A DNA stretch of 46,797 nt from Bacteroidota bacterium (GTDB taxonomy: Bacteria; Bacteroidota; Bacteroidia; UBA7662; CANHCV01): NCBI GenBank assembly GCA_947459245.1, contig CANHCV010000014.1:1-46797 (forward strand), read 5' to 3'. Each line of letters opens with the position of its first letter. The first letter of the stretch is position 1. The notes below the pieces were generated by a model. The model saw only the letters and a list, made by a program, of their open reading frames with translations, did no database searches and was not told where the DNA came from. Shown one piece after another: positions 6,989 to 14,752 of the stretch. Position numbers and translations under genes: made by a program.

Positions 6989-10378
<3,390 letters not shown>

Positions 10379-11796: not shown

Positions 11797-12669
11797 ATGA
11801 AAAGAAAAACAAAAACGTATGCTGGTATACCAGAAAAATACGGAAGGTTAAAAGATGCAGCCATTGCTTTAATTCCGGCCCCCTTTGATGGAACCTCCAC
11901 GTGGGGGAAAGGTGCTGATTTAGGACCTGAGGCGTTTTTAGAAGCGTCTGAAAACATGGAATTGTACGATATTAAGACCGAGACTGAGGTTTATAAAAAA
12001 GGAATTTACTTGGCTCCTGCCATTAAGGAAAAAGTAGATCCTGCAAAAATGGTTGAAGAGGTTTTTACCGCAACCAAAAAATACCTTGAATTGGGTAAAT
12101 TCACCACCATCTTCGGAGGTGAACACAGCATTTCAATCGGTACCATTCGTGCATTTGCAGAGAAATACGAAAACCTAACTGTGGTTCAACTCGACGCTCA
12201 CACCGATTTGCGGCCTGACTACCACGGAACTCCCTACAATCACGCTTGTGCGCTGTTTGAATCATCACAAAAACATAACCTCATCCAGGTCGGAATTCGA
12301 TCCATGGATGTGGAAGAAGTTCAATATTTGAACCGCGATCAAACGTATTTTGCCCATGAAATTTGGGAAAACGACAAATGGATGAAAAAGGCGGTGAATC
12401 AAATGACCGAAAATGTTTTCATCACGATAGATTTGGATGTTTTTGAATCGAGTTTAATGCCTTCAACGGGTACTCCTGAACCAGGAGGTATGCCTTGGTA
12501 TCAAGTGATGACCTTTATTGAAAAGATCATCAAAAAGAAAAATGTCGTTGGATTTGATATCGTTGAATTGGCTGCGAAAGACACCAATCGTGCTCCTGAT
12601 TTTCTAGCAGCCAAGTTGTATTACCGCATGTTAAGTGAAATTTTTGCTAAAAAAGACAAGAAAAAATGA
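11797..12669 (+). CDS. speB: Agmatinase / arginase-family ureohydrolase
   Basis: A 290-residue ureohydrolase with the dimanganese motifs GGEHS (His110), DAHTD (Asp133, His135, Asp137) and IDLDVFESSL (Asp212, Asp214), then TGTPEPGG. Agmatinase splits agmatine into putrescine and urea. Arginase or guanidinobutyrase cannot be fully excluded because specificity is set by small loops, but length and the TPEPGG segment fit agmatinase. The gene is preceded by a strong Shine-Dalgarno and overlaps a deoxyhypusine synthase-like gene by 4 bases (ATGA). This supports a polyamine role: this enzyme could supply putrescine as acceptor for the next. It is the first gene of a 12-gene same-strand block and is expected in the cytosol. 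Confidence 0.88.
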   Translation: MKRKTKTYAGIPEKYGRLKDAAIALIPAPFDGTSTWGKGADLGPEAFLEASENMELYDIKTETEVYKKGIYLAPAIKEKVDPAKMVEEVFTATKKYLELGKFTTIFGGEHSISIGTIRAFAEKYENLTVVQLDAHTDLRPDYHGTPYNHACALFESSQKHNLIQVGIRSMDVEEVQYLNRDQTYFAHEIWENDKWMKKAVNQMTENVFITIDLDVFESSLMPSTGTPEPGGMPWYQVMTFIEKIIKKKNVVGFDIVELAAKDTNRAPDFLAAKLYYRMLSEIFAKKDKKK

Positions 12670-13640
12670 GCCAAAAACCAATTTCAGATTTCATTGAAAA
12701 ATATTACCTGCATTTTAACGCAGCTACCGTTGTAGATGCTGCAAAAGGATATGTTCAACACCTTGAAGAAGGTGGAAAAATGATGGTTACCCTTGCAGGT
12801 GCCATGAGTACCGCAGAAATGGGTAAAATTTTAGCCGAGATGATTCGTCAGGATAAAATTGCCATCATTTCTTGTACCGGCGCTAACCTGGAAGAAGATA
12901 TCATGAACTTGGTAGCTCATGATTTTTATGAAAGAATTCCAAATTACCGCGATTTAACGCCACAGCAGGAATGGGATTTGTTGGAACGCGGCTTAAATCG
13001 CGTTACCGATACGTGTATCCCAGAGCATGAGGCTTTCCGTCGTTTGCAAAAGCACTTGGAAAAACTTTGGAAAGATGCCGAAGCCCGTGGCGAACGATTT
13101 CTTCCCCACGAATTCATGTACAAAATGTTGCTCTCTGGCGAATTGGAACAATACTATCAAATTGATCCTAAAGACAGTTGGATGATTGCCGCAGCAGAAA
13201 AAAACCTTCCCATTGTTGTTCCCGGTTGGGAAGATTCTACCATGGGTAACATTTTTGCGAGTTACGTTATCAAAGGTGAACTAAAAGCTACCACCATGAA
13301 GTCGGGTATTGAGTACATGACTTACCTGGCTGATTTTTACACCAAAAATTCGGATGGAAAAGGCATCGGATTTTTCCAAATTGGCGGTGGAATTGCGGGA
13401 GATTTCCCCATTTGCGTGGTTCCAATGTTGTACCAAGATATGGAAATGCATGACATTCCGTTTTGGAGTTATTTCTGTCAAATTTCAGATTCTACAACGA
13501 GTTATGGATCCTATTCAGGGGCAGTACCCAATGAAAAGATCACTTGGGGAAAATTGGATATTCACACTCCAAAGTTCGTGATTGAATCGGACGCGACCAT
13601 TGTTGCACCATTAATCTTCGCCTACATTTTAGGCATGTAA
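12666..13640 (+). CDS. Deoxyhypusine synthase-like protein (possible homospermidine synthase)
   Basis: A 324-residue member of the deoxyhypusine synthase fold family. Recognisable NAD-binding segments include VTLAGAMSTAEMG, ISCTGANLEEDIMNLVAHD and GFFQIGGGIAGDFPI. Near the C-terminus is ITWGKLD with Lys296, aligned with the lysine that forms the enzyme-butylamine intermediate in the eukaryotic enzyme (SWGKI). Eukaryotic enzymes modify eIF5A, which bacteria lack, and some bacterial homologues instead make homospermidine from spermidine and putrescine. The conserved lysine argues for real aminobutyl-transfer chemistry. Its coupling to speB suggests polyamine metabolism. The actual acceptor (putrescine, agmatine or a protein) cannot be told from sequence. 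Confidence 0.85.
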   Translation: MSQKPISDFIEKYYLHFNAATVVDAAKGYVQHLEEGGKMMVTLAGAMSTAEMGKILAEMIRQDKIAIISCTGANLEEDIMNLVAHDFYERIPNYRDLTPQQEWDLLERGLNRVTDTCIPEHEAFRRLQKHLEKLWKDAEARGERFLPHEFMYKMLLSGELEQYYQIDPKDSWMIAAAEKNLPIVVPGWEDSTMGNIFASYVIKGELKATTMKSGIEYMTYLADFYTKNSDGKGIGFFQIGGGIAGDFPICVVPMLYQDMEMHDIPFWSYFCQISDSTTSYGSYSGAVPNEKITWGKLDIHTPKFVIESDATIVAPLIFAYILGM

Positions 13641-13643
13641 TTC

Positions 13644-14363
13644 ATGGAGAAGTTGGATATTCTTGCTTTTGGAGCGCATCCCGATGATGTTGAGCTTTCC
13701 TGCTCGGGAACAATTATTCGGGAAGTTCGCCAAGGAAAGCGGGTAGGGGTAGTTGACTTAACCATGGGAGAACTTGGAACCAGAGGTTCTGCAGAAATTC
13801 GAATGAAGGAAGCAGCGCTTGCAGCCGAAATCATGGGATTATCCTATCGAACCAATTTGCAATTGAACGATGGATTTTTTGAGGAGAACAAGGAAAGTAT
13901 TACCCTCATCATCCAACAAATTCGACATTGTCAACCCGACATCGTTATTGCAAACGCGGTTCAAGATCGTCATCCCGACCATGCGAGAGGATCAAATTTG
14001 GTTTCGAGAGCCTGTTTTTTAGCAGGATTATCAAAAATTGAAACGGTTTTTGAAGGAATACCGCAAAACGTATGGCGACCAAAAGTTGTTTATCATTACG
14101 TTCAAGACAGGTATATCCAACCGGATGTGGTGATTGATATTTCTGATGTTGTGGAAGAAAAAAAGAAAGCAATTTTAGCCTATTCCACCCAATTTTTCAA
14201 TCCAGAAAGCAAGGAACCAGAAACTCCCATTTCTTCGCCCGATTTTTTCGAATACATTTTTGCAAAGGACCGTATTTTTGGTCGACAAATTCATGTTACA
14301 TTTGCTGAAGGATTTACTGCTGAAAGAGCAGTGGGTTCTTCATTTTTAACCCATCTTTTATGA
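13644..14363 (+). CDS. bshB1: Bacillithiol biosynthesis deacetylase BshB1
   Basis: A 239-residue LmbE/PIG-L-type zinc deacetylase. The first metal motif is AHPDD (11-15) in LAFGAHPDDVELSCSGT. The second is HPDH (110-113) in DRHPDHARGS. BshB1 removes the acetyl group from GlcNAc-malate in bacillithiol synthesis. The GELGTRGS segment and Bacteroidota context favour this over mycothiol or general LmbE enzymes. It starts 3 bases after the deoxyhypusine synthase-like gene and overlaps the DUF3127 gene by 4 bases. A low-molecular-weight thiol pathway agrees with the thiol-redox cluster on the opposite strand about 2 kb away. bshA and bshC are not in the window. Confidence 0.92.
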   Translation: MEKLDILAFGAHPDDVELSCSGTIIREVRQGKRVGVVDLTMGELGTRGSAEIRMKEAALAAEIMGLSYRTNLQLNDGFFEENKESITLIIQQIRHCQPDIVIANAVQDRHPDHARGSNLVSRACFLAGLSKIETVFEGIPQNVWRPKVVYHYVQDRYIQPDVVIDISDVVEEKKKAILAYSTQFFNPESKEPETPISSPDFFEYIFAKDRIFGRQIHVTFAEGFTAERAVGSSFLTHLL

Positions 14364-14752
14364 ATCAATTTACTGCTGTTGGACGTTTAGTTCAAGTGTT
14401 GGAAGAAGTTTCCGGTGTTGGAAAGACTGGAAATTCTTGGAAAAAACAAAGTTTTGTTGTTGAATTGGACGGAAGTTCAACCTATCCTAAGAAGGTTTGT
14501 TTAACTGCTTGGGGAGACAAAGTAGATACCTTGAAACGTTTAACCATTGGCGATCGCATTTCTGCTGCGTTTGACGTAGAATCTCGGGAATACCAAGGCC
14601 GTTGGTACACCGATTTAAAAGCATGGAAAATTGATGTTGAAGCCAATCGCTCAACAGGTGGCGGCGTAGATCCTTTTGATGGGGTAGATGTTCCACCAAT
14701 GGATAACAATTCCCCTGCATCACTTCCTGACGAAAACGATTTACCATTTTAA
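14360..14752 (+). CDS. DUF3127 protein with SSB-like acidic tail
   Basis: A 130-residue protein matching the DUF3127 family of Bacteroidota. The N-terminal 95 residues look like an OB-type fold (FTAVGRLVQVLEE, WKKQSFVVEL, KVCLTAWGDK, GDRISAAFDVESREYQGRWY), which resembles the core of single-stranded DNA-binding proteins. A low-complexity linker follows, and the protein ends in DENDLPF, strikingly like the acidic DDDIPF tip with which bacterial SSB recruits partner proteins. Function is unproven. The ATG overlaps the bshB1 stop (ATGA). The DNA-repair ATPase RarA, a family with SSB contacts, is encoded at the end of the same gene block. Confidence 0.85.
   Translation: MNQFTAVGRLVQVLEEVSGVGKTGNSWKKQSFVVELDGSSTYPKKVCLTAWGDKVDTLKRLTIGDRISAAFDVESREYQGRWYTDLKAWKIDVEANRSTGGGVDPFDGVDVPPMDNNSPASLPDENDLPF

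Follow-up and report, generated by a model that had tools for sequence, protein, structure and literature searches.

Canonical single strand DNA binding proteins (SSB; PF00436), such as E. coli SSB and B. subtilis SsbA, consist of an OB fold, a disordered linker and an acidic D-x-P-F tip, and the tip is a main recruitment signal in bacterial DNA repair and replication. The Firmicutes have a second SSB, SsbB, which is not known to have the tip that SsbA carries, and the gene for another relative, PriB, is placed between rpsF and rpsR. In typical SSB clients, the last Phe of the tip is buried in a hydrophobic pocket while its carboxylate is gripped by a basic lip (PMC10164576). The only mention of DUF3127 (PF11325) found in the literature was for a Pantoea phage whose SSB gave a DUF3127 match (PMC8004638).

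A DUF3127 protein encoded in a window of 46,797 nucleotides, the whole stretch of DNA analysed from a Bacteroidota bacterium, was compared with these systems. In common with canonical SSB it has a predicted OB fold, a disordered linker, an acidic D-x-P-F tip and a profile homology that spans the OB domain. It differs in that the best PF00436 score in the family is below the cut-off, the T-x-W-H segment is absent and about 10 residues are deleted between strands; the two proteins coexist in most genomes. PriB resembles DUF3127 in its SSB-derived OB fold and similar domain size, but it has no acidic tip and a different gene context, whereas in DUF3127 the tail and tip are conserved and the gene is not between rpsF and rpsR, its neighbours being bshB1 and an ORF without an NCBIfam match, and varied genes in other genomes. 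The SsbB-type paralogues of Firmicutes are, like DUF3127, a second SSB in the cell, and SsbB structures were among the fold matches; with DUF3127, however, the roles are reversed, in that the paralogue retains the tip while its loss may occur in the canonical SSB. The phage family phrog_4932 and DUF3127 are the same family from end to end, the tail being part of the match, although the name of phrog_4932 was itself given by similarity. Its phage members are accessory, whereas the cellular DUF3127 gene is chromosomal and present once in nearly all genomes of the class that were sampled.

The DUF3127 gene and its neighbours

The features of the locus are given in Table 1. The reading frame starts with the ATG at 14360 and stops at 14750-14752, and its translation ends in SLPDENDLPF, which confirmed the C-terminal DENDLPF reported in the first-pass annotation. 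The Pfam DUF3127 family matched residues 8-91 (E=1e-27, 96.5 bits versus a gathering cut-off of 27), and phrog_4932, named "single strand DNA binding protein", matched residues 8-130 with the tail included (E=2e-17, profile positions 5-117 of 117). The source genome has one DUF3127 copy.

Table 1. Features of the DUF3127 locus, in positions of the window. A1 is an alignment of 45 diverse DUF3127 proteins.
Feature	Coordinates	Strand	Evidence
BshB1 bacillithiol deacetylase gene (bshB1), context only	13644..14363	+	TIGR04001 E=2e-88
DUF3127 (PF11325) protein, SSB-like	14360..14752	+	130 aa; ORF, Pfam and PHROG matches
OB-fold domain, residues 4-93	14369..14638	+	AlphaFold2 model; Foldseek best matches SSB and PriB
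Low-complexity linker, probably disordered, residues 94-123	14639..14728	+	pLDDT about 50-64; length and sequence variable in A1
SSB-like C-terminal tip DENDLPF, residues 124-130	14729..14749	+	P129 and F130 invariant in A1; P-F ends family-wide

The 3' end of bshB1 and the start of DUF3127 share 4 bp, so the two genes are probably translationally coupled, and the next frame begins about 10 bp or less past the DUF3127 stop. Two genes upstream of DUF3127, at 12666-13640 of the window, is a gene for a deoxyhypusine-synthase-like protein, which scored well under the curated cut-offs. No conserved bacterial neighbourhood of DUF3127 was found, as the flanking genes vary from family to family. The one functional hint from the bacterial neighbours was dnaN (DNA polymerase III beta), which adjoins DUF3127 on the opposite strand in a genome of family f12 (L003:221-1345; TIGR00663 E=8e-74).

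E. coli RarA binds SSB via the tip, and the first-pass annotation had named RarA, encoded in the same block, as a possible partner of DUF3127. The rarA gene was found 8 kb from DUF3127 in the source genome (G000) and in G296 only. In the third member of the genus (G297), whose assembly is fragmented, the two genes are on different contigs, and outside the genus they were on separate contigs in every relative in which both were found. As the linkage does not extend beyond the genus and the bacterial neighbours are varied, a special tie to RarA was not supported, and no observation favoured RarA over the other possible clients.

The phage copies tested matched PF11325. The DUF3127 gene adjoins genes for an exonuclease and NinG in phi10:1 and Nekkels_1, RecT in phi13:2 and phi19:3, Erf and exonuclease VIII in Panino, and a primase/helicase and NinG in morran9-1; the neighbours in PF672P2 and LoVEphage were uninformative. 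The phage genes are mostly set among recombination and replication genes. Phage annotators already label the DUF3127 protein as SSB, and one record cites PF11325.

The C-terminal tip and its conservation

In alignment A1, P129 and F130 were the sole invariant columns, with a mean column identity of 35%, and no part of DUF3127 is better conserved than the tip. When the C-termini of the family were compared, as the first-pass annotation had advised, the P-F end was found to be conserved in 128 of 130 bacterial copies and in 8/8 phage copies. Among diverse Bacteroidota (copies from the phylum sample, from relatives and from Weeksellaceae), 122 of 123 copies had a P-F end and, among the eight residues ahead of it, two or more acidic ones; nearly all of these tails fit D/E-x-(L, M, V, I or A)-P-F, preceded by acidic residues. 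Further Weeksellaceae copies ended in P-F in six of seven cases. Loci were sampled by taking the best matches first and then one per genus, picked blind to the tail, which gave a broad, non-random sample; 80 loci found partly via the tail pattern were left out of the P-F count.

The tailless exceptions were L082, the sole copy in G299, and L362, which is the extra copy of G333, where the first copy has the tip. In both L082 (1492-1764) and L362 the OB domain is followed directly by the stop, so that linker and tip are absent, and no tail was found in the frames read past the L082 stop.

Only two of the 63 window frames that reach 100 aa have a P-F end, namely DUF3127 and an implausible plus-strand frame that overlaps a minus-strand gene at 9863-10378. 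The DUF3127 tip is not due to chance. Matches to [DE]-x-[LF]-P-F-stop in a genome scan were as numerous as in the reversed control, and this pattern misses the DUF3127 tail, which has Asn there.

The P-F ends of Bacteroidota DnaB surfaced via the same scan. This replicative helicase ends in P-F in nearly all Bacteroidota genomes sampled, often with acidic residues (L316-L341), and examples are ...DDDDDFPF in Chryseobacterium, ...DDDDDDSDVPF in family f5 and ...PKFGGPAPF in the source genome (L338, C102). The DnaB proteins of E. coli and B. subtilis are not known to have a P-F end. By its sequence, the Bacteroidota DnaB end looks like an SSB-like tip on a helicase, so that tips on other proteins could serve the lineages with a tipless SSB, and the tip network of the phylum extends beyond one protein. 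In G302 (genus g145; L324, L037/L038), SSB (...NDLPY) and DnaB (...GPAPY) both end in P-Y while DUF3127 keeps DDMPF; a change common to SSB and DnaB would point to one reader that recognises both tips.

The DUF3127 tail might also be conserved for a reason unrelated to the pockets of SSB clients, such as clamp or protease recognition, and the P-F end of DnaB in the same phylum raises the possibility of a reader of P-F ends that is specific to the phylum. We consider this explanation very unlikely, since the tail matches the SSB tip in length, acidity and D-L-P-F, is carried on an SSB-type domain, and ends identically to the tip-bearing SSBs of the same genomes.

The OB domain and its relation to SSB

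AlphaFold2 was run on an alignment of 45 diverse DUF3127 relatives. The resulting model has strands at residues 4-20, 26-36, 45-51, 66-78 and 81-93 and a helix at residues 54-59, with pLDDT mostly above 90 throughout this domain, a mean of 84 overall and a low-confidence tail. An OB-like N-terminal half and a flexible linker had been proposed from the letters of the sequence, and both were borne out, the first as a predicted SSB/PriB-type OB fold and the second as a stretch of low confidence and low complexity.

Foldseek returned 127 PDB chains at E<0.001, and the best 50 of the 127 were all SSB, SsbA/SsbB or PriB, with E values of 1.5e-5 to 9e-5 and a TM to target that reached 0.70. PDB sequence searches with the DUF3127 protein and with the family profile gave chance matches only, so the evidence for the fold rests on the model. 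Homology was also seen between profiles: hhalign aligned the DUF3127 profile with a canonical SSB profile from the same phylum over the whole OB domain (95.5%, E=1.5e-8). The window protein had no match to PF00436 (cut-off 26), and weak matches were obtained for 2 of 45 family members (best E=2.6e-4), for the G290 copy (E=9e-4) and for one phage copy (E=0.004). An iterated SSB profile absorbed DUF3127 sequences, and its cross-scores were therefore left out of the homology evidence. Taken from the Foldseek matches to SSB and PriB, the profile alignment and the weak PF00436 matches, the predicted DUF3127 domain is a diverged SSB, more than a generic OB fold.

In a joint alignment with SSB, the T-x-W-H segment, which includes W54 and H55 of E. 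coli SSB, was a gap in all DUF3127 rows, and for this reason neither ssDNA binding nor tetramer formation is to be assumed. Because of this missing stretch and a score below the SSB cut-off, DUF3127 was not filed as a canonical SSB. The short connector that replaces the segment would suit an SSB relative that assembles into a different oligomer, and PriB structures ranked 2, 3, 7 and 11 in the fold search, mixed with SSB. DUF3127 could on these grounds be a PriB-like primosome protein, that is, an OB-fold SSB relative that acts in replication restart with PriA and not as an SSB. This is unlikely, as the window protein matched none of the PriB families and the phage copies beside exonuclease and annealing genes have a location typical of SSB. 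In addition, the PriB protein ends with its OB domain and has no acidic tip (PMC8509808), whereas the tip is what DUF3127 conserves best.

Canonical SSBs and the proposed role of DUF3127

DUF3127 was found in all but one of the genomes sampled from the same class. The only canonical SSB of the source genome (PF00436; G000 C20, L002) ends in GDDSGFDELT, without a tip. The genus mates have the same tipless SSB end (L045, L046), and their second SSBs end in REAEPQEA (L172, L173). Of the 151 canonical SSB sequences read, 80 end in P-F, 8 in P-Y and the remainder in neither. These counts do not give a per-genome rate, as extra SSBs, of which many are likely mobile, are among the sequences. Both DUF3127 and the canonical SSB carry the tip in many genomes of many families, so the tip need not have moved. 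In 13 of 14 sampled genomes without DUF3127, at least one SSB ended in P-F; for G019 the reading covered one of its two SSBs.

The genomes of the Weeksellaceae (family f4) included Chryseobacterium cheonjiense (G012 C2, NZ_JABBGF010000002.1), Cloacibacterium rupense, Epilithonimonas caeni and Planobacterium oryzisoli. DUF3127 was present in 55/55 good-quality genomes and a PF00436 match in 50/55. Of the 51 genomes with SSBs read, 25 had no SSB ending in P-F, and in 40 the best-scoring SSB was tipless, typically ending straight after the OB domain (...EILLLGGK). Second, tip-bearing SSBs were patchy and lower-scoring, and the one in G320 adjoins an integrase-like gene; such second SSBs may be mobile in general. 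Profile searches of five near-complete assemblies (G321, G333, G334, G336 and G350) detected no housekeeping PF00436-type SSB. A second search of these five, with a profile built from 42 Bacteroidota SSBs, found nothing in four, and G336 gave only a diverged SSB adjoining phage-like genes. Where the canonical SSB is tipless, DUF3127 is the obvious tip carrier.

From its sequence and predicted structure, DUF3127 is probably a diverged SSB-type OB protein that binds ssDNA and recruits SSB clients via the tip of its tail, as a second tip-bearing SSB in Bacteroidota. The fold and the tip suggest that the OB domain would bind single-stranded DNA, while the tip on its flexible tail would dock in the SSB-recognition pockets of replication, recombination and repair proteins. 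In Bacteroidota, DUF3127 would thereby stand as a second tip-bearing SSB next to the canonical one. In the lineages with a tipless SSB (the source genus and most Weeksellaceae), the canonical SSB likely coats ssDNA and DUF3127 recruits, and in a few Weeksellaceae DUF3127 may both coat and recruit.

The first-pass annotation had suggested that DUF3127 proteins imitate SSB or compete with it in recruiting partners. Imitation is well supported by the conserved C-termini and the predicted SSB/PriB-type OB fold. Competition misfits the source genome, because the only canonical SSB there has no tip, and a protein that supplies the tip would fit better. A competitor of SSB is also what DUF3127 would be if it were a Bacteroidota-specific recombination mediator or regulator, which would not coat ssDNA in bulk and whose tip would occupy the SSB pockets. 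Such a protein would agree with the coexistence of DUF3127 and tip-bearing SSBs in many families, with the single copy, and with the loss of part of the canonical SSB OB domain, but it would leave the retention of DUF3127 unexplained where SSB is tipless or missing and there is nothing to compete with. We regard a mediator as improbable.

The homology, the fold, the conservation of the tip, the presence of DUF3127 where SSB tips are missing and the phage gene context are directly supported. We infer that DUF3127 is an SSB-like ssDNA binder that supplies the recruiting tip and is its main or only carrier in some lineages. A handover in parts of the Bacteroidota is a more tentative possibility; here DUF3127 would be the one SSB-type protein of the cell with an SSB tip, the canonical SSB would be a tipless coat, and DUF3127 would be the sole chromosomal SSB in some Weeksellaceae. 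If the proposed role is true, DNA coating and partner recruitment are separable between two proteins. DUF3127 would then be a near-universal second tip carrier in a large phylum, and a function would be assigned to a domain that has barely been mentioned.
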